From the NCBI GenBank assembly GCA_020846975.1, contig JADLCX010000054.1, positions 62,001 through 126,000 of the forward strand: DNA of 64,000 nucleotides, read 5' to 3'. Below are positions 2,185-64,000 of this stretch, piece after piece. The position numbers and the translations under genes were made by a program. Under the pieces are notes generated by a model, which searched no databases, had not been told where the DNA came from, and worked only from the letters and a program-made list of their open reading frames with translations. This stretch comes from Phycisphaerales bacterium. Its GTDB lineage: Bacteria; Planctomycetota; Phycisphaerae; Phycisphaerales; UBA1924. The first letter of the stretch is position 1. Each line of letters starts with the position of its first letter.

Positions 2185-3276
2185 ATGCGTTCCACACTCG
2201 CCATCCTCGCCGCGCTCTCCGCCGCCCCGCCCGCTTTCGCGGCCGATGCCTTCAACTTCTCTCTCAACACCGCCACCAGCGCGGTGTCGTACAACATCTC
2301 CGCCTCCGCCCCGTTCGCCGGTGACATGACCGGCAACACCGCGGCCACGCCCCCCACGCGCCTCAAGCACGGCACGTTCCGCTTCGGGTTCCCTCCCGGC
2401 GTCAACTGCTCGGGCTGGACCCCCACCACCAACGAGGCCATCGTCGTCTCGGGGTCCGTCACCGCCTCGGGAGCAAGCAGCAACATACGGCCCACAGGCA
2501 CGTTCCAGCTCGCGCTCGATACCGCCGCCAACACCGCCACGCTCCAGGGCCTTTCCCTCAACCTGCTCGGCACATCCACCGCCACCATCGCCGCCTCGCT
2601 CAGCAACTTCCGCTACGAAAACTTCTGCGCTGTCGATCCCGCCTGCGAACTTCCCTTCCTCATCCCGCTCACGCTCCCGCTCGGCAACGCCACCGTCTCC
2701 GCCCTGTCCGTTCAGCAGAGCCCCGGCGCCGCCGCGGGCACGATCACACCGGTCGCCGGCAGCCCCAACTCCTGGAACTTCGCGTTCCCCGCCGTCGAGG
2801 TCACGACCAACGTCACCGCCACCTTCTCCGGCTCGCCCCTTCCCGTCGCGCCCCAGACCCTCGCCACCCCCTTCACCGGCACGATCGTCATCAACGGCAA
2901 CACCGCCACCATCACCAGCACCCTCGACCTCAACCTGACGCCCGACCCCGTCACCACGCCCACGCCCCTGGCGCCCCTGCCCTTCACCATCCCCGCCGGC
3001 CAGCAGTTGTGCGCCGGCCTCAACCTCATCCTCTCGATGACCATCAACTCATCGACCTTCACCAACACCAGCACCGCCAACCTCGTCGCCGACGGCACGC
3101 GCATCGCCTGCCGCTGCGACTGGAACAACTCCGGCTCCGTCACCATTCAGGACGTCTTCGACTTCCTCACCAGTTACTTCGGCGCATCCGCCGACTTCAA
3201 CGCCGACACCTCCACCACCGTCCAGGACATCTTCGACTTCCTCACCTGCTTCTTCGCACGCCCGCTCGGGTGCTGA
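2185..3276 (+). CDS. Secreted protein with C-terminal GC-type dockerin module
   Basis: A 363-residue protein with a signal peptide ending at about residue 19 (FAA), a beta-rich Ser/Thr/Asn-rich body of no recognised family, and a C-terminal module of two dockerin-like repeats. Each repeat has an Asp/Asn-rich loop (CDWNNSGS, ADFNADTS) followed by a helix, IQDVFDFLTSYF and VQDIFDFLTCFF, ending in GC. The repeats resemble the calcium-binding F-hand pairs of dockerins. In this organism the module is presumably a surface-attachment or sorting tag, because it recurs on six other products in the window. GAGGT about 10 bases upstream supports the start. Function of the body is unknown. Confidence 0.8.
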   Translation: MRSTLAILAALSAAPPAFAADAFNFSLNTATSAVSYNISASAPFAGDMTGNTAATPPTRLKHGTFRFGFPPGVNCSGWTPTTNEAIVVSGSVTASGASSNIRPTGTFQLALDTAANTATLQGLSLNLLGTSTATIAASLSNFRYENFCAVDPACELPFLIPLTLPLGNATVSALSVQQSPGAAAGTITPVAGSPNSWNFAFPAVEVTTNVTATFSGSPLPVAPQTLATPFTGTIVINGNTATITSTLDLNLTPDPVTTPTPLAPLPFTIPAGQQLCAGLNLILSMTINSSTFTNTSTANLVADGTRIACRCDWNNSGSVTIQDVFDFLTSYFGASADFNADTSTTVQDIFDFLTCFFARPLGC

Positions 3277-6980: not shown

Positions 6981-8768
6981 ATGTTCCGCACATCCGCGCC
7001 TATCGCGTTCGGTGTCTCGTGCGCGGCCGTGCTCGCCGCCCCGGCAAGCCCCGCCCACGCCCAAGCTAACTCGCCCGTCCGCGTCGTCGCCCTCACCGGC
7101 ACCCCCGTCTTCGGCCTCGCGCCCCCGGCCACCTACACCGCGCTCAACCGCCCCGTCGTCGGCGGCAACGGGCGCATCTGGTTCACGGGCCAGTACAACA
7201 GCGGCGCGTTCGCGTTCATCGCCTCCAGCGACCCCGACGTCCCGCCCACCCAACTCTTCCGCCGCAGCACCGACCCCGTCCTCGAACTCGGCGGCGCGCC
7301 CGTCATCTGGCAGGGCACGTTCGACAAGCTCGCCGCGGGCAACAACGCCGTCGCCTTTGCTGGCGATTACGGCGGCGGCGCGGCCGGCAACGGCCTCGGT
7401 GTTTGGCAGACCGCCTCCAACAACCTCCTGCTTGCGGGCACCACCGCGATGGGCGCAGGCGCGCCGGGCACAACCGCCCGCTTCATCGTGTTCGAGTCCA
7501 CCGCGCTCGCCGGCGGCAACAGGCTCGCCGTCCGCGCCCGCACCGACGGCGCGGCCGCGACCGACACCGGCCTCTGGGTCGCCTTCGGCAGCGCGGGCTC
7601 CGCCCTCACGCTCTCTGTTCTCGAGGGCGACCTGCCGCCCGACGTCCCCGCCGATGTGCAGTACGACGACCTGAACTCCGCCCTCTTCGACCCCGTCATC
7701 AACCCCTCGGGCACGCTCGCGTTCCTCGCGCCCCTCCGCGGCGCGAGCGTTTCCGCCTCCAACAACCGAGCCGTCATCGCCGGCCCGCCCGGGGCCGAGC
7801 GCGTAGTCGCTCGCACAGGGTCTCAAGCCCCCGGCTACGACGCGGGCGTTGTCTTCGCCACACTCGCCGCGCCGTGGATCAACGAATACAACGATGTCGT
7901 CTTCACCGGGCGCGTCACCGGCGGCTCGCCCCCGATCGGTCCCAACAACGACGAGGCCCTCTGGATCGTCCGATGGCCCTCCACCACGCCCGAGGGCATC
8001 ATCTTCGAGGGCGATCCGGCCCCCGTCATCGGCGGAACCATTCTTCTTCACGAGCGCACGACTGGCACCGCCACTTTCCGGCACACGCTCGTCACCTCCG
8101 ACGGCCGCGTCGGCTTCGTCAGCGGCCTGCTCGGCACAGGCATCAACAACGACAACGACTCGGTCTTCTACACCGCCAAGCGCACCCCCGCCCCCGGCAT
8201 CGGCTGGACCTTCACCCTCGTCGCGCGCGAAGGTCAGGATGCTCCCGGCCTCACCGCCGGCGCCGATCGCTACGGCCAGTTCGACCAGTTGTGGCTCAAC
8301 GGCCGCAACGACCTCGCCTTCCGCTCCAACGTCAACAACTTCAGTTCCCGGGCGGCCCTCTTTGCGGGGCGGGTCGGCGGCATCCGCCTCCTCGCCGTCG
8401 CCAACGGCACCATCAATATCGGCAACGCGATCTCCCCCGATCTCCGCACCATCCCCGCGTTCTACAACCAGTACACCCCGAACTCCAGTTCCGGCGGCGG
8501 CGGCCGCGGCGATGGCCTCCCCACCTGCCTCTCCGATGATGGCAACATCGTCTTCCGCGTCACGATCAACGGCGGCGCAGCCATCCTCGAACACCGCATC
8601 CACCGCCGCGGCGACTTCAATGGCAGCGGCGACAACAGCCCGCAGGACATCTTCGATTTCCTGGAGGAGTACTTCGAGCCCGATCCGCAGGCCGACTTCA
8701 ACAACTCCGGCGATGTCGCCGTTCAGGACATCTTCGACTTCCTCCAGTCCTACTTCAACAACGAGTAG
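6981..8768 (+). CDS. Secreted choice-of-anchor protein with GC-type dockerin
   Basis: A 595-residue protein with a signal peptide (AHA-Q near residue 28). The body is built of repeats that alternate phrases such as RVVALTGTPVFGL, RVVARTGSQAPGYDAG and LVAREGQDAPGL with stretches like NPSGTLAFLAPLRG. This pattern of roughly 60-100 residue blade-like units is common in planctomycete surface proteins, and I believe it matches the DUF7453 type. The C-terminus is the two-repeat dockerin-like module (GDFNGSGD...QDIFDFLEEYF; ADFNNSGD...QDIFDFLQSYF). GAGGAG at 6967-6972 supports the start. Function unknown; probably extracellular. Confidence 0.75.
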   Translation: MFRTSAPIAFGVSCAAVLAAPASPAHAQANSPVRVVALTGTPVFGLAPPATYTALNRPVVGGNGRIWFTGQYNSGAFAFIASSDPDVPPTQLFRRSTDPVLELGGAPVIWQGTFDKLAAGNNAVAFAGDYGGGAAGNGLGVWQTASNNLLLAGTTAMGAGAPGTTARFIVFESTALAGGNRLAVRARTDGAAATDTGLWVAFGSAGSALTLSVLEGDLPPDVPADVQYDDLNSALFDPVINPSGTLAFLAPLRGASVSASNNRAVIAGPPGAERVVARTGSQAPGYDAGVVFATLAAPWINEYNDVVFTGRVTGGSPPIGPNNDEALWIVRWPSTTPEGIIFEGDPAPVIGGTILLHERTTGTATFRHTLVTSDGRVGFVSGLLGTGINNDNDSVFYTAKRTPAPGIGWTFTLVAREGQDAPGLTAGADRYGQFDQLWLNGRNDLAFRSNVNNFSSRAALFAGRVGGIRLLAVANGTINIGNAISPDLRTIPAFYNQYTPNSSSGGGGRGDGLPTCLSDDGNIVFRVTINGGAAILEHRIHRRGDFNGSGDNSPQDIFDFLEEYFEPDPQADFNNSGDVAVQDIFDFLQSYFNNE

Positions 8769-8972: not shown

Positions 8973-11015
8973 ATGACGCGAACGCCTTTCACATCAACCC
9001 TCCTCGCGCTGGTGCTCTCGAGCGGCCTGGCCGTCTCCGCCGCCCACGCGCTCGACCAGAACGCCGCGCCGGCCAAGTCCGCCACGGACGCCTCCGCCGC
9101 GCGCCTGATCGTCCCGACGCACGCCGGACCGCGCGCCTTCCTTGTGGATGCGCCCGATGCGCCCTCCAGCCCCGCATCGCGCGACGATTCCGCCGAACCC
9201 GATGAACACGGCAAGCCCCGCGGCCAGACCACCGGCTTCCGGCTCACCGCGCGCGTCATCATCCGCGCAAAAGACCCCAAGGCCGTCGCCGCCGCGCTCG
9301 GCCCCAAGCCCGCCGTCAAACTCATGCCCGCCGCGCCGGCCGGCGCCCCGACGACCGGCGAACTGCGTGAGTTCCACTACGCCGATGCGCCCACGATCCG
9401 CGCTGCCATCGCGCTGGCCGACACCCTCGCCAGGTCTCCCGGCATCGACCTCGCCTATCTCGACATCGAATGGCCGAAAACCCTGCGCAACAACATTCCC
9501 ACCGATCCCTTCCTCGTCTCGCAGTGGCACCTGATCAACACCGCCACCCCCGCCGCCGACACCAACGCCGATGCCGCGTGGAAGAGCGGCTTCACCGGCG
9601 CGGGCGTGACCGTCGGCATCCTCGAGGGCGGCTGGGACTCGACCCACGAAGACCTCGCGCCGAACTTTGACGCGGCCGCCAGCCAGTCCAGCGCCAACTT
9701 CAGCGACCACGGCACCTCCACCGCCGGCCTCGTCGCCGCCGCGGCCAACAACGCCCACGGCGGCGCGGGCGTCGCCTGGGGCGCGCACATCTCCAAGCAG
9801 TTCTACGGCACCGCCTCCGAGATCAGCGCCGCCTTCGGGTTCGCCAACGACATCAACGACATCAAGTCCAACTCCTGGGGGCCTTTCGACAACGGCCGCA
9901 TCGCCGCGATCGATCCGCTCGAACTCGCCGCCATCCAGGACGCCGCCACCGCCGGCCGCGACGGCAAGGGCGTCATCATCGTCTGGGCCGGCGGCAACGG
10001 CGGCCAGAACAACAACGACCGCGTCGATTACGACCCGTACGCCTCAAACCGCTACGCCATCGCCGTCGGCTCGATCGACGCCGCCGACCGCAAGGCCCTG
10101 TATTCCGAGCCGGGCTCGGCGCTCATGGTCGTCACCACCTCCGACTACGACATCAACGCCTCCAACGACGTCGGCATCTTCACCACCTCCAGTTTCAACG
10201 GCTACACCACCAACTTCGGCGGAACATCCGCCGCGGCCCCGATCGCCGCCGGAATCTGCGCCCTGGTCCTCGATGCAAACCCGGAACTGACCCGGCGCGA
10301 TGTCCAGCACGTGCTCATCCGCTCGGCCCGCCGCTGCAACCCCGCCGACCCTTCCTGGCGATTCAACGGCGCGGGAACGGGCCAGCTCCGCATGCACAGC
10401 GACCTCTTCGGCTTCGGCGCGCTCGACGCCGGCGCGGCCACGACCCTCGCGCAGTCCTGGGTCAACCGCCCCGTCGAAGCGTCCTTCGTCTCCGATACCA
10501 TCAGCCCCGCGCTGAGCATCCCCGACAACAACACCACCGGCATCACCACCAGCATCGTCGCCGCCAGCCCGCTCATCGTCGAGCGAGCCCAGGTCACGCT
10601 CACGCTCCCGCACCCCTCGATCGGCAACCTCCGAATCCGCCTGATCTCGCCCAGCGGCACCGAGGCCCTCCTCGCCGCGCCGAGATTCGATTCCACCGTC
10701 GGCGGCTACAACAACTTCACCTTCACCGCCGTCAAGTTCTGGGATGAACGCGCCGCCGGCTCGTGGACCCTCCGCATCGCCGACGAGACCGCCGGCAACA
10801 CCGGCACGCTCACCGGTTGGCAACTCAAACTCCACGGATATGTCCCAACCTGCCCCTGCGACTGGGACCTCTCGGGTGGCGCACCCACACTCCAGGATCT
10901 CTTCGACTTCCTGACCTCGTTCTTTGCGGGCCGCGGCGACTTCAACGCCGACACCACGACCTCCGTCCAAGACCTGTTCGACTTCCTCGACTGCTGGTTC
11001 GGCGGCTGCGCCTGA
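8973..11015 (+). CDS. Subtilisin-like (S8) protease with P domain and dockerin
   Basis: Starting at ATG 8973 gives a 680-residue preproenzyme with a signal peptide (AHA-L near residue 27). An S8 peptidase domain follows with His246 in HGTSTAG, an oxyanion-hole region WAGGNGG, and Ser419 in GGTSAAAP. The position that is the catalytic Asp in other S8 enzymes is Glu218 (VGILEGGWDSTH), with Asp222 four residues on. After it come a proprotein-convertase P domain (about 500-625; VTLTLPHPSIGNLRIRL, GSWTLRIADE) and the C-terminal dockerin-like pair. The enzyme is presumably exported and surface-attached. An ATG 13 codons upstream (8934) is in frame but would precede the signal peptide with an unlikely extension. 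Confidence 0.85.
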   Translation: MTRTPFTSTLLALVLSSGLAVSAAHALDQNAAPAKSATDASAARLIVPTHAGPRAFLVDAPDAPSSPASRDDSAEPDEHGKPRGQTTGFRLTARVIIRAKDPKAVAAALGPKPAVKLMPAAPAGAPTTGELREFHYADAPTIRAAIALADTLARSPGIDLAYLDIEWPKTLRNNIPTDPFLVSQWHLINTATPAADTNADAAWKSGFTGAGVTVGILEGGWDSTHEDLAPNFDAAASQSSANFSDHGTSTAGLVAAAANNAHGGAGVAWGAHISKQFYGTASEISAAFGFANDINDIKSNSWGPFDNGRIAAIDPLELAAIQDAATAGRDGKGVIIVWAGGNGGQNNNDRVDYDPYASNRYAIAVGSIDAADRKALYSEPGSALMVVTTSDYDINASNDVGIFTTSSFNGYTTNFGGTSAAAPIAAGICALVLDANPELTRRDVQHVLIRSARRCNPADPSWRFNGAGTGQLRMHSDLFGFGALDAGAATTLAQSWVNRPVEASFVSDTISPALSIPDNNTTGITTSIVAASPLIVERAQVTLTLPHPSIGNLRIRLISPSGTEALLAAPRFDSTVGGYNNFTFTAVKFWDERAAGSWTLRIADETAGNTGTLTGWQLKLHGYVPTCPCDWDLSGGAPTLQDLFDFLTSFFAGRGDFNADTTTSVQDLFDFLDCWFGGCA

Positions 11016-20192: not shown

Positions 20193-22523
20193 ATGGTCGT
20201 TTGTCGTCGTTTCATCAACTGTCTTGGTCTGGCTGCGATCGCCGGGCTCGGCGTGAGCGCCTCGGCGCTGGCCGATGATGTCAAGGTCGCAAACCCCGCG
20301 CGGGCGACGGCCGGGCAGCGCGTCACCATCACCGCCGGAACCCCGGTCGTGAACCGCGGCCCCGGCACGCTGCTGTACTCGGCCATGGGCGCGACGCCCC
20401 TGGTCGGCAACGTGCGCTTCAACCCCGGCCTCGGCGGCCCCGGCGGCGCGGGCGGCACCATCAACGACATTTCCGTTGACGATGTCCCGGTGCTGAACGC
20501 CATGACGCAGCCCCAGCTCGAGATCCACAGCGTGAGCGTCGGCGTTCGCCACGCCGCCGCGGATCCCTCGTGCGATGTGCGGCTCATCGCGTACCCCCTC
20601 CTCGGCGACGGCTCGACGATCGAGCTGCTCAACGGCGCGTGCGATGTTCCCGGCGCGGTGGTCCTGGGCACCCAGGCCAAGCCCGTCGGCGGAGCCGCGT
20701 TCACGACCGCCGTCATGACCTACACCCCCGCCACACCGGTGACGCTGAATCTCAACAACGACCTGTTCCCAGGCTTCGGCGCGGTGGGCATCGGCCTGCA
20801 GTTCGATGGCCCGAACGGCCCGAACGACGGCCACGGCTGGCTCTGCCGCTTCCCCGATGCGGGCTTCGCCAACGCCCAGCAGTTGTTCTGGGTCCTGGAC
20901 CTGGTCGATCAGGCCGCGCCGGATGACGAGGGCGCGTTCCAGTTCGGCGACCCGACCGTGGATGCCCCGCCGGCCACGTTCCAGATCCAACTCACCGGCA
21001 CGATCGTCGGCACGGGCGCGCCCACCGGCGCGTGCTGCGACACCGTGACCGGCGACTGCGCCCTCTTCTCGCAGATCGCCTGCGAGGCCTTCGTTGATAC
21101 GACCTACCAGGGCGACGGCACGACCTGCACGCCCAACGTGACCTGCGGCGTCCAGGGCGCCTGCTGCTTCGGCGATGGCACCTGCGCGCTGCTGCTCGCG
21201 GCCACCTGCACCGCCGACGCGACCAACGTCTACGGCGGCGACACCACCGTCTGCACCACCGCCAACATCTGCCCGGCCGTCGGCTCGTGCTGCACCGGCA
21301 GTTGCTGCGAGATCCGCACCGACGCGGGCTGCGCCGGCGCCTGGACCTCCGGCGGCTCCTGCGCCAGCAACCCCTGCGGCCTGCCCCCCAACGACACGTG
21401 CGCCGGCGCGACCGCTGTCTCCGTCGGCGCCAACCCCGGCGGCTCGTGCAACGCGACCACCGACTTCAGCATCACGCCCGAAACCCAGTGCCCCACCGGC
21501 GCCGCGGGCTCCGGCGGCTCCAGCGATGTCTGGCACACCTTCGTTGCGCCCAACACCGCCCAGTACATCATCGACACCTGCAACGCGATCGGCTACGACA
21601 CCGTGCTGGCGATCTATGACGCCGCCTGCGGCACCATCGACGCCAACACCATCCCGCTGGCGTGCAACGACGACCAGCCCGCGCCGGCCTGCGGCGTGCA
21701 ACCCTTCGCCTCGCAGCTCACCGTCAGCCTGAACCAGGGCCAGTCCTACCTCATCCGCGTCGCGGGCTTCAGCACCACCGGCGGCCCGACCGGCAGCTAC
21801 ATCCTCACCATCGCCGAGAACGCCACGGGCGCCTGCTGCGTCCCCGGCTCCGCTTCCTGCTTCACCGACACCTCGGCCAACTGCACCTCGCCCGGCGTCG
21901 GCGGCACCTTCCTCGGCGCCAACGTCTCCTGCACCCCCGAGCCCTGCCCCGGCGCCTGCTGCGCTCCGGACGGCACCTGCTCGATCGCTACCGCGGCCGC
22001 CTGCACCAACGGCAGCCTCTTCCAGGGCGTGAACACGCTCTGCGCCCAGGTCTCCTGCTCGATCATCGCCACGGGCGCCTGCTGCAACGGCAGCACTTGC
22101 ACCAGCACCACGCAGGTCTTCTGCCAGGGCAACGGCGGCACCTACCAGGGTGACTCGACTTCCTGCACGCCCAGCCCCTGCGCTCCGGCCACCGGCGCGT
22201 GCTGCTGCGGCTCGTCCTGCCAGATCACCACCGTCGCGGCCTGCTCCGGCGCCAACCGCGTCTTCCAGGGCGGCGGATCGGTCTGCACGCCCTTCAGCCT
22301 CACCGTCCCCTGCTGCCGCGGTAACTACAACAAGTCGGCCCCCGGCCCGGGCGCGCCCGGCGGCGTCTCGGTCCAGGACATCTTCGACTTCCTGACCGGC
22401 TACTTCTCGACCGACCCCTGCGCCAACACCAACGACAGCGCGGCCGGCCCCGGCGCCCCCAACGGCGTCTCGGTCCAGGACATCTTCGACTTCCTCGCCG
22501 CCTACTTCGGCGGGTGCATCTGA
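20193..22523 (+). CDS. Large secreted Cys-repeat protein with GC-type dockerin
   Basis: A 776-residue protein with a signal peptide (ALA-D near residue 28), a beta-rich N-terminal domain, then multiple Cys-rich repeats of about 40 residues. These begin with GACC or similar (TGACCDTVTGDC, QGACCFGDGTC, TGACCVPGSASC, PGACCAPDGTC, TGACCNGSTC, TGACCCGSSC) and end with a Cys after QGxxTxC. Between the second and third groups is a pre-peptidase-like beta-sandwich domain (DVWHTFVAP, YDTVLAIYDAAC, SYLIRVAGFS). The C-terminus is a dockerin-like pair with long loops (VQDIFDFLTGYF, VQDIFDFLAAYF). A strong ribosome-binding site fixes the start. Function unknown; a large extracellular adhesion or matrix protein is likely. 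Confidence 0.8.
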   Translation: MVVCRRFINCLGLAAIAGLGVSASALADDVKVANPARATAGQRVTITAGTPVVNRGPGTLLYSAMGATPLVGNVRFNPGLGGPGGAGGTINDISVDDVPVLNAMTQPQLEIHSVSVGVRHAAADPSCDVRLIAYPLLGDGSTIELLNGACDVPGAVVLGTQAKPVGGAAFTTAVMTYTPATPVTLNLNNDLFPGFGAVGIGLQFDGPNGPNDGHGWLCRFPDAGFANAQQLFWVLDLVDQAAPDDEGAFQFGDPTVDAPPATFQIQLTGTIVGTGAPTGACCDTVTGDCALFSQIACEAFVDTTYQGDGTTCTPNVTCGVQGACCFGDGTCALLLAATCTADATNVYGGDTTVCTTANICPAVGSCCTGSCCEIRTDAGCAGAWTSGGSCASNPCGLPPNDTCAGATAVSVGANPGGSCNATTDFSITPETQCPTGAAGSGGSSDVWHTFVAPNTAQYIIDTCNAIGYDTVLAIYDAACGTIDANTIPLACNDDQPAPACGVQPFASQLTVSLNQGQSYLIRVAGFSTTGGPTGSYILTIAENATGACCVPGSASCFTDTSANCTSPGVGGTFLGANVSCTPEPCPGACCAPDGTCSIATAAACTNGSLFQGVNTLCAQVSCSIIATGACCNGSTCTSTTQVFCQGNGGTYQGDSTSCTPSPCAPATGACCCGSSCQITTVAACSGANRVFQGGGSVCTPFSLTVPCCRGNYNKSAPGPGAPGGVSVQDIFDFLTGYFSTDPCANTNDSAAGPGAPNGVSVQDIFDFLAAYFGGCI

Positions 22524-37245: not shown

Positions 37246-37569
37246 ATGAGGCCGCTGCGTTGCCGGACGACCTCCGCGACCGCGCGGCCGGTGAGAAATC
37301 GAGCACGCCGAGCGGGGCGTGGCGGGTTGGGGGATCGGGTTGCCGTCGCCCCGGATGACCAGACCTCGACCGGCCGCGAGCTCCTGGGCTGGGACATCGC
37401 CCCGCTGTGCTGCTGCGACCTTGGCTACAGCGGCACGACCACGGCGCAGGACGTATTCGACTTTCTGGCGATGTTCTTCGGGTCCGCGGCCGACTTCAAC
37501 AACGACGGCGCAACAACGGCACAGGACATCTTCGATTTCCTGACGTGCTGGTTCGGGGGGTGCGTGTGA
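37246..37569 (+). pseudogene. Orphan dockerin module, probably a gene remnant
   Basis: A 107-codon frame whose last ~55 residues are a full GC-type dockerin pair (CDLGYSGTTTAQDVFDFLAMFF; ADFNNDGATTAQDIFDFLTCWFGGC). The N-terminal half is Arg-rich, has no signal peptide and looks like out-of-frame sequence. As every other copy in the window is at the end of a secreted protein, this is best read as the surviving 3' end of a decayed gene. It lies 18 bases before rarA. Confidence 0.55.
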
Positions 37570-41412: not shown

Positions 41413-44325
41413 ATGGCGAGCGTGCAAGGCGGAATGAACGCATGGTTGGCGTGCGCGGCGGGTGCAGCGATGGCGGCGGGCGCGCCGCCGACGCTCCTGA
41501 GCGACATCAACCCGACGGTGCGGAACGAGGGCTCGCTTCCGGGCAATGGCGCGCGGCCGGGGATGGCGGCGGTCAACGGTCTCGCTCTGTTCACGGCCGA
41601 CGACGGCATTCATGGGCAGGAACTGTGGGCGAGTGATGGGACGGAGGCGGGCACGCGGTTGCTGAAGGACATCAATGCGGGCCCGAGCGGCGCGACGATT
41701 CCGAGAATTACGGTCGTGCGCACGAGCGCGGGCGATGTGGCGTACTTCGATGCCCAGCACTCGGTGTTTGGGTACGAGCTGTGGCGATCGGACGGAACAC
41801 CGGAGGGAACAAGGCTGGTCGTGGATGCCGTGCCCGGAAGCTCATCGCTGAATCCGCTGGAGATCGTGCCGCTGGGCGAGGGCGTGGCGTTCTCGGGGTC
41901 TGATCCGGCGACAGGGCAGGAACTTTGGGTGAGCGATGGGACCGCGGCGGGGACGCGGGTCGTTTCGGACCTGGTGGCGGGCACAGGCGGCGCGTTTCCG
42001 CGCGGGCTGGCGTCGATCGGGGACAAGGTGGTGTTCACGGTCTATCTCAACTCGACGGGCGAAGAGCCGTGGGTGAGCGATGGGACCGCGGCGGGGACGT
42101 TCATGCTGGGCGACCTGACCCCGGGCAGTTCGTCGTCGTCGATCCAGACGATCGTCGGGCTGCCGGGGCGTGCGTTCTTCGCGGCGTATGACCAGAACGC
42201 CTCGATGTACAAACTGTGGACGACGGATGGGACGATCGCGGGGACGCGCGTGGTGCTGCAGAGCAACGGGCAGCCGGTGCCGAACGTGCTGCGGTTGTAT
42301 GGCGGGGCGGGGTTCGTGGTGTGCGAGTCGTATGAACAGGACTCGGGGATCTATCGCGTCGTGCGCAGCGACGGAACACCGGAGGGAACATCGACGGTCG
42401 CGGTGGGGACGATCACGTTCATCTTTGGGGGCGAGGAGCCGTGCGTGTGGGGCGACTCGGTGTTCCTGCCGATCGATCAGGAATCGTACGGGTATGAACC
42501 GTGGCGCATCTCGCGCACGCCGGGCACGACGATGCGGCTCGGGGATCTGGCGTCGGGATCGAGCGGCTCGTATCCGGGCTCGTTCACGGCGACGACGAGC
42601 GCGGTGTACTTTCTGACGGGGAACGGCCCGGCGCGCACGCTGTACCGGAGCAACGGCACCGCGGCGGGCACAGCGCCGGTCCAGCCGCTTCCGGCTGCGC
42701 CGTTCACCGGCGGCGCGGGATACATGCTTGGCGTCGGCGAAACGCTGTACTTCGCGGCGGATGACGGTGTGCATGGCACGGAGTTGTGGAAGACGGATGG
42801 GACAGCGCAGGGGACATCGCTGGTCAGGGACATTCGCGGGCCGCGGAGCTCGAGTTCGCCGACGACCTTCGGCGCGGCGGAGAATGCGGTGGTGTTCAGC
42901 GCGTTTCGGCCGGACATCGGGCGCGAGCTGTTCGGGACGAACCAAAGCGGCGCGGAGTTGGTGTTCGATTGCGCACCTGGGACGACCTCGGCGCAGAGCA
43001 CGGCGCCGGCCTCGAGTTCGCCATCGCCGATGGTGAAAGCGGGGACGCTGCTGTACTTCCGCGCGACGGACACGGCGCACGGGAGCGAAGTGTGGGTGAC
43101 GGATGGGACCGCGGCGGGCACGCGATTCACGCGCGACATCAATCCGGGGCCGACGGGGTCGCTGACGCCGCCATCGTCGCCGATCGTGCAGGGCATCGTG
43201 AACGCGCGCGCGGCGGAGTTGGGCGGCGCGGCGGTTTTTCCCGCGGCGACGGCGGCGGAGGGCTGGGAGATCTGGCGGAGCGATGGGACGGAACCGGGTA
43301 CCGCGCCGCTGCTTGTCGGGTCTGCGGGCACAACTTCTTCGACGCCGGGATGGATGACCAAGCTGGGGAACAAGGCTCTGTACACGGCATCGGCCACGGG
43401 GCAGGGAAACGAGCTGTGGGTGACCGAAGGAACCACGGCGACGACCGCGCTGCTGAAGGACATCGCGGCGGGCACGGGGAGCAGCACGCCGCAGAACCTG
43501 ACGGCGTGGAACGGACGGGTGTACTTCAGCGCGACGACGACGGCAACGGGGCGCGAGCTGTTCGTGAGCGACGGCACGGGGGCAGGGACGGCACTACTGG
43601 CGGACCTGCGGGCGGGCGGGTCATCGTCACCCTCGCTGCTGACGCCGAGCGATTCGTACCTGTTCTTCGTTGCCGAGACGACGGAGTTCGGGCGCGAGCT
43701 GTACCGGACCGACGGGGCGATTGAGGGGACGGTTCGGCTGACGGACATCGTGCCGGGCCCGGGCTCGCCGCACATCGCGAACCTGGTCGAGGCGGGGCCG
43801 GTGGTGTTCTTCAGCGCGAGCGACGCGTCGGGTGACCGCGAGCTCTGGATCAGCGATGGGACGGTGGAGGGCACGCGGCGCGTGCGGGACATCAACCCCG
43901 GGCCGGCGTGGGGTGATCCGAGCGGGACCGTGAGGATCGACGCGCGGCGTGTGGCGTTCAGCGCGTTCACACCCGAGGCTGGATATGAACTGTGGCAGAG
44001 CGACGGGAGCGGGGTGGGGACGCGGGCGGTGGGACAGATCGCGGCGGGTGCGCTGTCGAGCTTTCCGCACAGCCTGTTCATGGACACCGCACGGGCGCGG
44101 CTGCTCTTGAGCGCAGACGACTGGTCGCCGACGGGACGCGAGCTGTATTCGTGGACACCCGGAGCGTTCTGCGTGTGCGATGTGAACGACGATGGCGCGC
44201 GGACGGTGCAGGACCTGTTCGACTATCTGGGGATGTTCTTCGGCGGGGATGGGGATGTGACGGGCGATGAGGAGACGACGGTGGGCGATGTTTTCGAGTA
44301 TCTGGCGTGTTGGTTTGGATGCTGA
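41413..44325 (+). CDS. Giant ELWxSDGT-repeat secreted protein with dockerin
   Basis: A 970-residue protein with a signal peptide, then at least twelve repeats of about 50-65 residues with the core ELWxSDGTxxGTxLVxDI (for example ELWASDGTEAGTRLLKDI, ELWVSDGTAAGTRVVSDL, EVWVTDGTAAGTRFTRDI, ELWISDGTVEGTRRVRDI). The repeats suggest a large beta-propeller or solenoid. The C-terminus is a slightly divergent dockerin-like pair (VQDLFDYLGMFF; VGDVFEYLACWFGC). The start at ATG 41413 has GGAGGT at 41399-41404. Function is unknown; surface-exposed is likely. Confidence 0.85.
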   Translation: MASVQGGMNAWLACAAGAAMAAGAPPTLLSDINPTVRNEGSLPGNGARPGMAAVNGLALFTADDGIHGQELWASDGTEAGTRLLKDINAGPSGATIPRITVVRTSAGDVAYFDAQHSVFGYELWRSDGTPEGTRLVVDAVPGSSSLNPLEIVPLGEGVAFSGSDPATGQELWVSDGTAAGTRVVSDLVAGTGGAFPRGLASIGDKVVFTVYLNSTGEEPWVSDGTAAGTFMLGDLTPGSSSSSIQTIVGLPGRAFFAAYDQNASMYKLWTTDGTIAGTRVVLQSNGQPVPNVLRLYGGAGFVVCESYEQDSGIYRVVRSDGTPEGTSTVAVGTITFIFGGEEPCVWGDSVFLPIDQESYGYEPWRISRTPGTTMRLGDLASGSSGSYPGSFTATTSAVYFLTGNGPARTLYRSNGTAAGTAPVQPLPAAPFTGGAGYMLGVGETLYFAADDGVHGTELWKTDGTAQGTSLVRDIRGPRSSSSPTTFGAAENAVVFSAFRPDIGRELFGTNQSGAELVFDCAPGTTSAQSTAPASSSPSPMVKAGTLLYFRATDTAHGSEVWVTDGTAAGTRFTRDINPGPTGSLTPPSSPIVQGIVNARAAELGGAAVFPAATAAEGWEIWRSDGTEPGTAPLLVGSAGTTSSTPGWMTKLGNKALYTASATGQGNELWVTEGTTATTALLKDIAAGTGSSTPQNLTAWNGRVYFSATTTATGRELFVSDGTGAGTALLADLRAGGSSSPSLLTPSDSYLFFVAETTEFGRELYRTDGAIEGTVRLTDIVPGPGSPHIANLVEAGPVVFFSASDASGDRELWISDGTVEGTRRVRDINPGPAWGDPSGTVRIDARRVAFSAFTPEAGYELWQSDGSGVGTRAVGQIAAGALSSFPHSLFMDTARARLLLSADDWSPTGRELYSWTPGAFCVCDVNDDGARTVQDLFDYLGMFFGGDGDVTGDEETTVGDVFEYLACWFGC

Positions 44326-45834: not shown

Positions 45835-48599
45835 TTCGGCACTTGGGTTCATCGGGCACTCAGATCGGGCAGGAAGCACGCGAAGCTGAGGGTGCCGCTT
45901 TCTCTGTCGATGTCACGGGATGGTCCTCGGGCGACATGCTCCAAGTGTTCCACGAGGACGACCCCAACGACTCCACAAACAACATCGGCCTCATTACCAT
46001 CTTCGGTCAGTCCGGAATCCTCAGCGTGCTGATCGGCGGAGACAGCAACACAGCGGTGTTTCCCGACGTCACAGACTTGATCGACCCCGCCTGCCACGAT
46101 TTCGCCGGTCTGGTGTTCGACGATGCGGTTCAAGGTCGCGCGACGCAGGCGACCATCTGGGTCGCCAACGACATTACCGGGCCGGTCACCGTGGGGCGCA
46201 TCTCTCGCATCGACGCCGCTCGCAACATCGACGGCGACATCACAGCCACGGTGACATCAGAGTGGGATGAGTTTGAGTTCCTGATCGAGCGCATCGGCGC
46301 GGGTAACCGAATCGCGGGCGACATCACCGGTGTCGGCCAGTTCAGCCCGTACAAGTCGATCGATCTCATTGTCGTCGGTCCGAGCCTGACCGCCGAGGGC
46401 ATCACCGGCGACATCAAGAACGAGCTCGGCCGAATCGAGCGTATCTTCACGACCGGCAAGATCGGAACAAGCGCGACGCAGAAGTCGGCGATCCGAGCCG
46501 GGGTCGGGATCACCGAGATTCGAGCGATCTCGCTCGGCGGCACAACCGTACTCGATCGGGACATCTTCGCGGATATCCGTTCGAACCTGTCCGGCTCAAT
46601 CGACACAAGTCTTGTCAGCAGAGCGCTCAACAAGCTGCACACGGCCGGCGATTTCGTCGGCAGCATCGATGTTGACTTCATCCGCCCGCGCTTCAACCCC
46701 GGTCCTGACGGGCTTCCAGTGCCCGGTTTGGAGTGGGGCATCATCGTGGGCGGTGCGTTTACCGGCGACATCAAAGTGCGTCACTCCGTTCTGAAGGCCT
46801 CGATCGGCGCGGGCACGTTTACCGCTCCGACGACCGCCAACCCAGACACGGGGCACATTGTCGTGGACCATGCGCTCGACGGTCCCATCGTGGCGACGAA
46901 CTCGGACGGCTATATCCACTCGATCTCGGTAGGCCGAAATCCGTTCCCTGAAGGAGCACGTTCCGGCTTCGTTGGAACGCAAAGCGAACCGCAGACCAAA
47001 CCGTTCGTGCCGTGGCGAATTCCGACGACGGGGAGGCTCGTGGCGGTTCCGAACCTGCCGACCATGCCGGACGTTCCCCCGGCCCCGGACTGCCTCATCG
47101 CCGCGAACTCGATCGGATCCATTACGATTTCGGCGATGTACCGGGCGAACTTCAAGGCGTTCGTGCCCCGGATCGAGTCTCCAACAATCGGCACGCTGGT
47201 CATCGACGACATGCGAGAAGGCGTCGTGTGGTCCGGCAATCTCGAGTACGATCTTGACACCAATGGATTTCCGGAGATCGACTCCATGACCGGTCGCGCG
47301 GCCGTGCAGGATCCGACGGACCATTCCAACGACTACGCAACAATCGGAACGCTGACTCTCGGTTGCGTCGGTCCCGGTGCGGATGTGTGGTTCCAGGGCA
47401 CACCGCAGTCGAACATTGCAGAGCACCTTCTTGGTGAGTTGTACCTTCCCGCTCTCGCGGCATCCGAGCAGGTCCGCATCGGGAAGCGGCTGGGGAGCGC
47501 GAGCGGTCAGACGCCGGACACTTGCCCGTGCACCATCATCTCTCCCGAAGGTGTCGATGATTGCGTGGCCCAGACGCAGGGCGGTTGGCCCGTCGATGGA
47601 GTAACTGATGACTCGCCTCGGCACATGCGAGGCGAGGAGATGGCCGAGGTCGGCACGATCCGCATCGCCTCAGCGACCGGCTTGGCCGGGCAGGTCATCG
47701 TGCGGCAGTCGGCCGGAGAAGACACGGATGCGCAGGCGTGGTCGGGGCAGGTGATCGTCGGCGATGGAACGGGCACACCGGTGGTGCTCGCGCCGGAATC
47801 GGCCTCGCCCGATGAAGGCCCCTACTACAAGCGTGTATCGAGCGAGCTGGGCAACGGCGCGGTCGGGCTCGCGCCGTTCCACCTGTACGAGGCGGATTGT
47901 GTGCCGCGGCACGATCGCGAGGAATCGACGGCGGGGATCTTCGAGGGCGATGTGAACAACGGGTCGCCGGTGCGGGCGCGGTTCTTCGGGCCGATCAAGC
48001 TGGGCGAAGGCGAGACCTCGTGGTCGGATGTGCTGACGGTGCACTGCCGACCGTTCGGTGCGAACGAGTGCAACTGGATCGACGTGACGAACGCGTGGGT
48101 GCGGTCCGGGCCGTCATCGTCAGCGACCAGCGCGCTGGATCGGCGAACCATCACGCTCACCCGGGCCTCGACCTACCACATCGCGCCGGGGGTGTATCTG
48201 CTGCAACCGGTGTACGAGGAGGCGATCGTGAGCCGCGACCTGTCGCTGGACAAGGCCGCGGTGTGGCCGATGGTGTGCGTGGGATCGGAGGAAGTTCCTG
48301 GGTATGCCTTCATCGTCTATGGCGATTGCGACGAGGACGAGACGCCGGATCATCTGGACGGCGATCTCTCGACGTGCGAGATCGACTGTCACATCGCGGA
48401 CTTCAACCACAGCGGGATGGTGACGGTGCAGGACATCTTCGACTTCCTCGATCAGTTCTTCCGCAACTGCACGGGCGTCAACACGCCGCCGAATGTCGGG
48501 TGCTGGCGCTCGGCGGATGTCAACAACGCCGGAGGCGTGACGATCCAGGACCTGTTCGATTTCCTCGGCGCGTACTTCTCGTGGCACGACTGCGAGTGA
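45756..48599 (+). CDS. Large secreted protein with GC-type dockerin
   Basis: A 947-residue protein starting inside the 3' end of the previous gene (ATG 45756, AAGGAAGGA upstream). Signal peptide to VHA-Q (about 22). The body is beta-helix-like: many short repeats such as ITGPVTVGRISRI, NIDGDITATV, RIAGDITGVG, ITGDIKNELGRI, GAFTGDIKVRHS, typical of right-handed parallel beta-helices. A Cys-bearing region and a beta-sandwich follow, then a dockerin pair with an unusually long Cys-bearing linker (VQDIFDFLDQFF ... IQDLFDFLGAYF). The overlap with the SUMF1 gene implies coupled expression. Confidence 0.8.
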   Translation: MWKQLLFLLAGTFGGTSLPVHAQPVVIRHLGSSGTQIGQEAREAEGAAFSVDVTGWSSGDMLQVFHEDDPNDSTNNIGLITIFGQSGILSVLIGGDSNTAVFPDVTDLIDPACHDFAGLVFDDAVQGRATQATIWVANDITGPVTVGRISRIDAARNIDGDITATVTSEWDEFEFLIERIGAGNRIAGDITGVGQFSPYKSIDLIVVGPSLTAEGITGDIKNELGRIERIFTTGKIGTSATQKSAIRAGVGITEIRAISLGGTTVLDRDIFADIRSNLSGSIDTSLVSRALNKLHTAGDFVGSIDVDFIRPRFNPGPDGLPVPGLEWGIIVGGAFTGDIKVRHSVLKASIGAGTFTAPTTANPDTGHIVVDHALDGPIVATNSDGYIHSISVGRNPFPEGARSGFVGTQSEPQTKPFVPWRIPTTGRLVAVPNLPTMPDVPPAPDCLIAANSIGSITISAMYRANFKAFVPRIESPTIGTLVIDDMREGVVWSGNLEYDLDTNGFPEIDSMTGRAAVQDPTDHSNDYATIGTLTLGCVGPGADVWFQGTPQSNIAEHLLGELYLPALAASEQVRIGKRLGSASGQTPDTCPCTIISPEGVDDCVAQTQGGWPVDGVTDDSPRHMRGEEMAEVGTIRIASATGLAGQVIVRQSAGEDTDAQAWSGQVIVGDGTGTPVVLAPESASPDEGPYYKRVSSELGNGAVGLAPFHLYEADCVPRHDREESTAGIFEGDVNNGSPVRARFFGPIKLGEGETSWSDVLTVHCRPFGANECNWIDVTNAWVRSGPSSSATSALDRRTITLTRASTYHIAPGVYLLQPVYEEAIVSRDLSLDKAAVWPMVCVGSEEVPGYAFIVYGDCDEDETPDHLDGDLSTCEIDCHIADFNHSGMVTVQDIFDFLDQFFRNCTGVNTPPNVGCWRSADVNNAGGVTIQDLFDFLGAYFSWHDCE

Positions 48600-48632: not shown

Positions 48633-48669
48633 GTTCCGAACCGGCGGGATTGGCCCGCCGGTTCGGAAC
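48633..48669. terminator. Perfect 16-bp hairpin between convergent genes
   Basis: GTTCCGAACCGGCGGG and CCCGCCGGTTCGGAAC with a 5-base loop. Lies between the dockerin gene ending at 48599 and the subtilase gene ending at 48695, so it may stop transcription from both sides. No T tract is seen on either strand. Confidence 0.55.
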
Positions 48670-48693
48670 ATCGGCAAGGACGCCGATGCCACG
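48670..48693 (-). repeat. REP-like element, GTGGC family, minus-strand copy
   Basis: Read on the minus strand: head CGTGGC, then ATCGGC-GTCCTT-GCCGAT. It matches the 24-base unit at 62836 at 22 of 24 positions. It ends one base before the subtilase gene's stop codon side. Confidence 0.6.
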
Positions 48694-56456: not shown

Positions 56457-58223
56457 TCACAACTTCCGGTCCAGCAGCCGGTACTGCACCGCCTCTCCAA
56501 CGTGCTCGGCGCCGACGGTGTCGGCGCCGGCCAGGTCCGCGATCGTCCGAGACACGCGGCGCACCTTGTCGTACGCCCGGGCGCTCAGCCCCATCTCGGT
56601 GATCGCCTGCCCGAGGATCGTCCGTGCGTCGTCGGTCATGGGCGCGAACTTGTCGAGTTCGCGCCCGCTCAGGCGCGAGTTCGTGGCGCCGCCCTGGCGC
56701 GCCGCCTGCCGCCGACGCGCGGCCATCACCTGCTCTCGCATCTGCCCGCTGCTCGTGCCCCGCGGCGTGCCCGCGTCGGCGCTGAGCTGCTTCCACGGCA
56801 CCGCCGGCGCCTCGACGTGAATATCGATGCGATCAACCAGCGGCCCGCTCAGCCTGGACAGGTACCGCTCCATCGCCCGCTTGCCGATCTCGTCGGCGGG
56901 CAGGTCGCCCTTCGGTGTCGGGTTCATCGCCGCCACGAGCATGAAACTCGCGGGAAAACGCACCGCGCTGTGCGACCGCGCGATCGTCACCACGTGGTCC
57001 TCCAGCGGCTGGCGCAGCGTCTCCAGCACGTCCCGGGGGAACTCCGGCAGTTCATCCATGAACAGCACGCCCCGGTGCGCCAGCGAGATCTCGCCCGGAC
57101 GCGGGATCGCCCCGCCGCCGACGATCGCCGCGCTGCTGGCGGTGTGGTGCGGCGTGCGCACCGGCCGGACCGTAATCAGCCCCGCACCCCCCGCGCCGGC
57201 CTTGCCGTCGTTCCCCGAGGGCATCATCCCCGCCGCCGAATAGATCCGCGTGATCTCGATCGCCTCGTCCGGCGAGAGCGGCGGCAGGATCCCCGGCAGG
57301 GCGCGGGCCATCATCGTCTTGCCCGTGCCCGCGGGGCCGAGCATGAGCAGGTTGTGCGCACCCGCCGCGGCCACCACGATCGCTCGCTTCACGGCCTCCT
57401 GCCCGCGGACATCCGCGAAATCCACGGGCGCGGCCCCCGCCGCGAGCAGCGATTCCACATCCGCCGGCGCGTGCGGTCGGGCTTCGAGCGTCCCGTTCAG
57501 GAAGCCGAGCACCTCGATCAGCGTCCCCGCGCCGATCGCCTCGACCCCGGGCACGACCGCCGCCTCGGCGACATTGGCGGCCGGGACCACCACGCCGCGC
57601 AGCCCCCGCGCCTTCGCCAGAGCCGCCATCGCGATTACGCCCCGCACGGGTCGCAACCGCCCATCGAGCGCAAGTTCGCCGGCGAACAGGTACTGGCGAT
57701 GATCCAGCGGTTCGATCGCCGCGGCATCGGCATCCGTGGGGGTGCCGATGTCGTCCTTGTCGTGCACACCCTCCGCGAACGGATCGAACGGCCGCGGCGC
57801 GCCTCCCCCGCTCGTTGTCCCCTTTCTCGCCCCGGTCATCGGCGGTGATGCCGATGCCACGCCGTGCCTGGCCCGCGCGCTCCGTACCGCCACCTGCACG
57901 CCCCGGCCCCCCACCACACCCAGCGTGTGCAGCAGCCCCACCGCGATCGGCAGGTCGTACAGCGGCCCCTCTTTGCGGATATCCGCCGGCGCGAGGTTGA
58001 TCAGCGTGCGTCCGCCCTGCACCGGGTAGCCGGAGTTGCCCATCGCCGCGCGCACACGCTCGATCGACTCCTTCACCGCCGTGTCGGGCAGGCCCACGGT
58101 CGTCGTCCGCGTCTTCTCCTCGCTCATCGCCCCCGGCCCGGATCCGATGTCGTAATCAACCTCGACCTCGCACGGGAGGGCATCGATGCCTTGCAGGACG
58201 TACGACTGGACTCGGGCGAGCAT
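56457..58223 (-). CDS. comM: YifB/ComM-type Mg chelatase-like AAA ATPase
   Basis: A 588-residue YifB-family AAA+ protein; ComM helps integrate DNA during natural transformation in other bacteria. It has the Lon-protease-like N-terminal domain (VGLPDTAVKESIERVRAAM, INLAPADIRKEG), Walker A MLGPAGTGKTMMARALPGILPP, Walker B VLFMDELPEFPRDVLETLRQPLEDH, and a zinc-free C-terminal domain. About 60 extra residues lie between YDLPIAVGLL and LFAGELALDG (about 108-165) compared with E. coli YifB. Two REP-like elements lie in this insert in inverted orientation. Confidence 0.9.
   Translation of the reverse strand: MLARVQSYVLQGIDALPCEVEVDYDIGSGPGAMSEEKTRTTTVGLPDTAVKESIERVRAAMGNSGYPVQGGRTLINLAPADIRKEGPLYDLPIAVGLLHTLGVVGGRGVQVAVRSARARHGVASASPPMTGARKGTTSGGGAPRPFDPFAEGVHDKDDIGTPTDADAAAIEPLDHRQYLFAGELALDGRLRPVRGVIAMAALAKARGLRGVVVPAANVAEAAVVPGVEAIGAGTLIEVLGFLNGTLEARPHAPADVESLLAAGAAPVDFADVRGQEAVKRAIVVAAAGAHNLLMLGPAGTGKTMMARALPGILPPLSPDEAIEITRIYSAAGMMPSGNDGKAGAGGAGLITVRPVRTPHHTASSAAIVGGGAIPRPGEISLAHRGVLFMDELPEFPRDVLETLRQPLEDHVVTIARSHSAVRFPASFMLVAAMNPTPKGDLPADEIGKRAMERYLSRLSGPLVDRIDIHVEAPAVPWKQLSADAGTPRGTSSGQMREQVMAARRRQAARQGGATNSRLSGRELDKFAPMTDDARTILGQAITEMGLSARAYDKVRRVSRTIADLAGADTVGAEHVGEAVQYRLLDRKL
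57720..57749 (+). repeat. REP-like element, GTGGC family, inside comM
   Basis: CGCGGC head, then ATCGGCA ... TGCCGAT with a longer 9-base loop (57720-57749). It is a divergent member. Together with 57838-57861 it makes an inverted pair about 90 bases apart inside the extra segment of comM. Confidence 0.5.
57838..57861 (-). repeat. REP-like element, GTGGC family, inside comM
   Basis: On the minus strand: CGTGGC then ATCGGC-ATCACC-GCCGAT, 22 of 24 bases as in the 62836 copy. It lies within the comM coding sequence, in the residues ARHGVASASPPMTG. Confidence 0.55.
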
Positions 58224-62835: not shown

Positions 62836-62859
62836 CGTGGCATCGGCATCCCTGCCGAT
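62836..62859 (+). repeat. REP-like element, GTGGC family, copy upstream of plsC
   Basis: Head CGTGGC followed by ATCGGCA-TCCC-TGCCGAT (7-bp stem, 4-base loop). It is identical over 24 bases to the copy at 63665. It is 12 bases from the queC start and 18 bases before plsC. Confidence 0.7.
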
Positions 62860-62877
62860 CCCTCTACCATCCGCCCC

Positions 62878-63664: not shown

Positions 63665-63688
63665 CGTGGCATCGGCATCCCTGCCGAT
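63665..63688 (+). repeat. REP-like element, GTGGC family, copy after plsC
   Basis: Identical 24-base copy of the 62836 element, two bases after the plsC stop and 63 bases from the RAYT gene's 3' end. Confidence 0.7.
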
Positions 63689-63690
63689 GT

Positions 63691-63751: not shown

Positions 63752-64000
63752 TCAGACACCCCGACACCCCACCCACTGCCAATCCCTCAACCCCGCCTTC
63801 GCCGGATTCTCCAACACGTACCGCACCGCGTGTGCAAACTCCTCCTCATCGCGAATCAGGTGATCGTACGACTCCGGCTGCCAGAACGCGCCAGTTCTCC
63901 CAAGCAGCTTGTTCGCCTCGCTGGAAGTAAACCCCTTCCACGAGTGCAGGATCGCCGAGAGCCCAAACCCCTCGCGCGGCCGGAACACCGCATGCACGTG
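63752..64000 (-). CDS. REP-associated tyrosine transposase (RAYT), 3' part
   Basis: The last 82 codons of a minus-strand gene cut by the right edge of the window. The first complete codons read HVHAVFRP, the HUH metal-binding motif of Y1 transposases (IS200/IS605-like). LSAILHSWKGFTSSEANKLLG, WQPESYDHLIRDEEEF with the catalytic Tyr (ESYDHLIR), and AVRYVLENPAKAGL follow, matching the RAYT group. Such enzymes bind and move REP palindromes. The window's REP-like elements fit this. Confidence 0.85.
   Translation of the reverse strand, partial: HVHAVFRPREGFGLSAILHSWKGFTSSEANKLLGRTGAFWQPESYDHLIRDEEEFAHAVRYVLENPAKAGLRDWQWVGCRGV

Follow-up and report, generated by a model that had tools for sequence, protein, structure and literature searches.

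The window, i.e., the whole 64,000-nucleotide stretch of DNA analysed here, carries on its reverse strand a comM gene of 588 codons (56457-58223) encoding a YifB/ComM Mg-chelatase-like AAA+ helicase, with matches to TIGR00368 of NCBIfam (483 bits, cut-off 362) and to the Pfam families ChlI, Mg_chelatase, and Mg_chelatase_C. DLPIA and GELAL are 87 residues apart in the encoded protein, compared to 19-68 residues in 25 relatives, and the gap between matched blocks spans 77 residues, as against 11 in the Legionella pneumophila ComM of known structure. The reading frame remains open through this extra segment, which is rich in Gly, Pro, and Asp and contains two REPs in opposite orientation. Copy 1 (57837-57860, minus strand) runs in the direction of the gene, shares 22 of the 24 bases of GTGGCATCGGCATCCCTGCCGATG (2 mismatches), scores 36.9 bits, and is translated as VASASPPM (residues 122-129). 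Copy 2 (57721-57750, plus strand) runs opposite to the gene, scores 32.4 bits, and matches the gapped pattern of the family exactly; both consensus stem arms are kept, the loop is 6 nt longer than in the consensus, and the copy codes for a DIGTPTDADAA stretch, read backwards within DDIGTPTDADAAA. Bit scores derive from a covariance model built on 35 REP variants, with which the window was also scanned. The 86-nt spacer (57751-57836) is coding and devoid of the inner GGGTCAACCC hairpin present in most other pairs (7 of 12, by eye). A preliminary description of the locus had reported two facing REP-like elements about 90 bases apart in an in-frame segment of this composition, and all of this agrees with the present analysis. 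Both copies preserve the palindrome and the tag side, giving two matches to the gapped pattern within 140 nt, and the REP halves of the pair are better preserved than the spacer. In the predicted fold of the pair (-64.7 kcal/mol), the two REPs form the outer stem, and six other pairs are predicted to fold likewise.

Not all of the comM excess is derived from REPs, since REP-free relatives also display long, low-complexity loops of variable length, reaching 66-68 residues among the 25 relatives, and in some of the closest genera the loops are even longer than the 19-68-residue range. The pair makes up ~47 residues of the loop, and subtracting these 47 codons from the 87 residues leaves ~40, which is an ordinary comM loop length. 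The extra segment noted previously is present with Legionella ComM as comparator, but a derivation of the whole segment from the REP pair is rejected. The alignment comprised 25 loci chosen from the 80 found in a genome-contig scan, with at most 72 percent identity to the window comM, and the 60 relatives compared all belong to genera other than that of the host, so that they provide no empty comM site from its own genus. Scanning 55 comM loci of relatives with the covariance model revealed no REP, the best score being 19.6 bits (L039). The preliminary description had looked to related strains for presence or absence of the insert; in these other genera the loops are indeed free of REPs, but their length varies also without them.

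An AlphaFold model of ComM based on 26 sequences had a mean pLDDT of 79.8, with values below 50 at residues 115-117 and 119-162, a range that takes in the first REP together with the spacer and extends into the beginning of the second REP. The remaining model aligned with Legionella ComM (8rxd) over 475 residues (Z 32.4, rmsd 3.0). Modelling of the loop on the ComM fold, as foreseen in the preliminary description, thus predicts that the loop is probably disordered and not part of the folded Lon-like domain.

At its far end, the window holds the 3' portion of a 204-codon ORF (63752-64000, minus strand) for a Y1 transposase (RAYT); this ORF continues past the window and matches PF01797 (Y1_Tnp) with 30.8 bits (cut-off 23) at G000:C54:125815-126042. 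Six further Y1_Tnp matches are found elsewhere in the genome, and one of all seven is below the cut-off. The RAYT ORF has REPs on both sides; on the window side, a consensus REP (63666-63689, plus strand, 0 mismatches) adjoins the gene and is located 2 nt past an acyltransferase-like ORF. Another REP with 1 mismatch (62837-62860, plus strand) lies between this ORF and a queC-like one (both named by eye), and a third, with 2 mismatches, is located at 48669-48692 on the minus strand. As a separate observation, several window ORFs share a recurring coding motif (VQDIFDFL...YF, accompanied by D.N.D stretches) that resembles a dockerin-type C-terminal domain family (3115-3261, 8610-8762, 10935-11006, 22341-22514, 37403-37560, 44165-44243, and 48396-48584).

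A GTGG-tagged REP family and its inverted pairs

The 24-mer GTGGCATCGGCATCCCTGCCGATG has 60 copies in the genome at up to 3 mismatches and 0 in the reversed control, and the gapped pattern GGCATCGGCATCN{3,12}GCCGATG has 28 matches in the genome and 0 in the backwards control. Among 162 other same-family genomes, which include many of the 60 relatives, the gapped pattern is matched once each in 8 and not in the rest, and the 24-mer has one match in total in the 60 relatives. Chance similarity is rejected by the 162-genome control together with the reversed controls: the REP family is abundant in this genome and absent or nearly so in its relatives. The single match in a relative (G019:C12:30610-30633, L302) is an exact consensus REP in another genus otherwise without the family, and it may be a recent transfer or a remnant.

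The REP consists of a conserved GTGG tag at the foot of an 8-bp stem with a 4-nt loop, and the stem displays paired changes among members, e.g., from CATCGG/CCGATG to CATGGG/CCCATG. A second hairpin, whose arms vary around a constant GGGTCAACCC-like core, comes after many of the REPs (e.g., C54:126447-126586 and C63:34777-34892), and a REP pair with such second hairpins would fold as a branched hairpin with inner arms. In addition, a second GTGG-tagged family, GTGGCATCGGCTTCCAGCCGATG with the variants GTGGCACGGGCYTCCRGCCCGTG and GTGGCACGGGCCTCCGGCCCGTG, occupies 33 places, several of them in frame. Merging both families gives 102 distinct REP places, including 9 extras (8 model matches and the second comM copy). 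Excluded were a DADGDGD coding stretch (C58:349798, 29.3 bits) and model matches with E > 0.1 that were absent from every pattern list, except C41:8231 (E 5.1), which was retained as it pairs with C41:8318. Twelve inverted pairs within 200 nt were found in the genome, all in plus-then-minus order and spanning 70 to 187 nt, and the same genome-wide 200-nt tally contained no inverted pair of the opposite polarity. Four of the 12 are exactly 140 nt long, the comM pair among them; for comM, this length counts in the 6 additional loop nucleotides, and the agreement may be coincidental.

In-frame REPs in other genes of the genome

An in-frame REP was called where the frame was open and codon use to either side resembled that of coding sequence, after which the protein was named. 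By this measure, 19 of the 102 REPs, from both families, lie in frame in 13 genes, and for the remaining 83 no in-frame position within a named gene was identified (their context was scored rather than individually annotated). Roughly one copy in five is thus in frame, which seems a high share. Inverted pairs are found in frame in five genes, namely comM, kmo, gatB, truA, and an aldehyde dehydrogenase gene. The cleanest case is kmo, where a near-perfect pair of 116 nt (0 and 1 mismatch) adds 39 residues after HIPA, and the loop is shorter in the 16 relatives listed of 26 loci aligned. The gene was named by eye as kynurenine 3-monooxygenase; its NCBIfam matches are to flavin monooxygenases, none above the cut-off. 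In truA (L290:753-1760, minus strand), 44 residues stand against 1 in a solved homologue, and in gatB (L298:82-1716, minus strand) 32 against 5, both with a weak left-hand match (4.5 to 14.9 bits for the two genes). The aldehyde dehydrogenase (L296:428-2296, minus strand) has 30 residues where its solved homologue has 6; apparently, this protein also carries another extra stretch near GPQGGKAGRQQGTKEIVKCSQAG.

Single or multiple in-frame REPs were found in genes for a Polysacc_synt_2 protein, RimO, CarB, an RluA-methyltransferase fusion (linker), a Cys/Met-metabolism enzyme (C-terminal tail), a GlcD-like FAD oxidase with a 4Fe-4S domain, a GH20-like protein (two REPs), and a Wzy_C protein. In carB, 11 residues at the REP are missing from the aligned CarB chain, which we take to be that of E. 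coli. The REPs of the Polysacc_synt_2 protein and rimO are located in variable loops (16 of 29 loci listed for each), and the net gain in length at the rimO REP is almost nil. In the Cys/Met enzyme, Pfam similarity extends to residue 429 and stops immediately ahead of the REP, although some relatives' matches reach ~455. The RluA fusion, Wzy_C, GlcD-like, and GH20-like genes are the weaker cases, called from open frame, codon use, and protein naming. In the first of these (L001:383-2308, plus strand), an RluA-type pseudouridine synthase is in one open frame with a methyltransferase, the REP forming part of the linker, and a REP insertion may have joined the two genes. Not tallied were an N-terminal REP of a pilin-like ORF with uncertain start (C101) and a weaker tandem REP-like copy in the Wzy_C gene.

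Origin of the comM insert

The best explanation, to which we assign a probability of about 0.86, is that an inverted REP pair (REPIN/BIME-like) of the GTGG-tagged family entered the comM loop and is read as a disordered loop of ~47 residues. The preliminary description had likewise proposed that a REP pair became protein sequence, and the abundance of the family, the REP-free comM genes of relatives, and the in-frame REPs of other genes, where kmo, truA, the aldehyde dehydrogenase gene, and gatB are cleaner examples than comM, argue for this from sequence comparison. TnpA-REP of other bacteria reportedly mobilises REPs as single-stranded DNA. Here, the RAYT could have mobilised the pair in the same form, and the pair would have arrived as one unit in the Lon-like N-terminal domain, where the receiving loop was already long and variable. 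The gene would have stayed open because the REP consensus is stop-free in six frames and the inserted length keeps the frame, and the insert would have survived because of this open frame and the site in an already variable loop. The element would be translated in vivo, probably as a floppy loop, with a near-neutral effect on ComM.

As the comM spacer lacks inner hairpins, its two flanking REPs may have been acquired in separate events. Hence, two single REPs could have entered the loop independently in opposite orientation, leaving 86 nt of original ComM loop as the spacer, which is in line with the single in-frame REPs of other genes, the two REPs of the GH20-like gene, and the long comM loops of REP-free relatives. 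We consider this possible but not probable, as the comM pair has the polarity of all 12 pairs, with the opposite polarity absent, and a span equal to that of three other pairs. Moreover, 5 of the 12 pairs are located in genes compared to 9 of the 78 other REPs, although this difference (Fisher p 0.019) is post hoc, concerns only 12 pairs, and is not relied on. It could also be speculated that the insert was retained for a function in ComM or its mRNA, e.g., as an interaction loop or a hairpin, and the better preservation of the REP halves would fit such a role. Yet, the loop is predicted with low confidence and as disordered, it is unconserved in relatives, and the other genes carrying REPs are unrelated, making a retained function very unlikely. 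Finally, ordinary low-complexity expansion, with REP-like bases arising incidentally from Asp-Ala and Ser-Ala codons at the high G+C content of this genome, is scarcely credible: relatives without REPs do have long low-complexity loops and the DADGDGD stretch reached its 29.3 bits by chance, but as no more than 8 of the 162 relatives match the gapped pattern, each of them once, two matches within 140 nt are not expected, and both copies keep the palindrome and tag side.

Relation to known systems and reading frames

REPs and REP dimers inside genes were published in 2013 for several species with tyrosine transposases, with target genes often in DNA repair and also in tRNA modification, according to the consulted sections of PMC3733652. 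The present case shares with these GTAG/CGTC REPs the location of REPs and dimers within genes, DNA repair and tRNA-modification targets included, but differs in REP sequence, host, and target genes; comM, kmo, and gatB are unnamed in those sections. It also resembles the Rickettsia palindromic elements (RPE), which are 105-146 nt long and found in frame in many conserved genes of an intracellular alphaproteobacterium, as described in the consulted part of PMC2229807; one tested enzyme carrying an RPE was still active (PMC2229807, PMC3733652, both in excerpt). The likeness lies in the REPs here being in frame in conserved genes and absent from homologues. Like RAYT-linked REPs, the family is a multicopy palindrome with a GTAG-like tag, mostly extragenic, and flanks a Y1 transposase gene. 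Pseudomonas REPINs are RAYT-linked inverted REP doublets able to fold as one long hairpin, as the comM pair is, but they are almost all extragenic in the excerpt of PMC3116915 considered, whereas 19 of 102 REPs are in frame in genes here. Searches of open-access PMC papers brought up none that deals with REPs located in comM or kmo. Translated palindromic repeats are a known kind, if seldom described; as far as the open papers searched show, what is new here is the group of the host, the sequences of the two families, and targets of which comM and kmo are examples. The genome offers a clear case, spread over several genes, of mobile palindromes that turn into protein loops in a planctomycete, with stages that look recent (kmo) and others that look older (comM, gatB) side by side. 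The system permits tests of how well enzymes tolerate some 8 to 47 foreign residues and of whether the REP tag decides the survival of coding insertions.

With regard to the reading frames, the consensus of both REP families is stop-free in all six, and a GTAG tag in place of GTGG would create a stop in one of them. By eye, four of the five forward family-1 copies in genes read VASAS(L/P)PM and four of the five backward copies read IG.DADA-like, with the gatB pair in other frames. No family-1 in-gene copy uses the Cys/His/Trp-rich frames WHRHPCR or HRQGCRCH, and this avoidance fits selection against harmful peptides, the numbers being small. The frame that GTAG would stop is used by only one in-frame copy (C86), so the frames seen lend little support to the tag change as the cause of frame choice, which was set aside. 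A broader, rather unlikely reading is that these are coding-permissive REP families: GTGG in place of GTAG would remove the one stop, leaving inserts stop-free in six frames, and inverted pairs in particular would land and survive in the loops of conserved enzymes, as a recurrent source of new protein sequence in this lineage. GTGG is recorded as a variant of the GTAG tag, and the Verrucomicrobium O. terrae has the most intragenic GTAG repeats with a tag that is mostly GTGG, as stated in the consulted sections of PMC3733652. If the families were indeed coding-permissive, O. terrae would be a second case.
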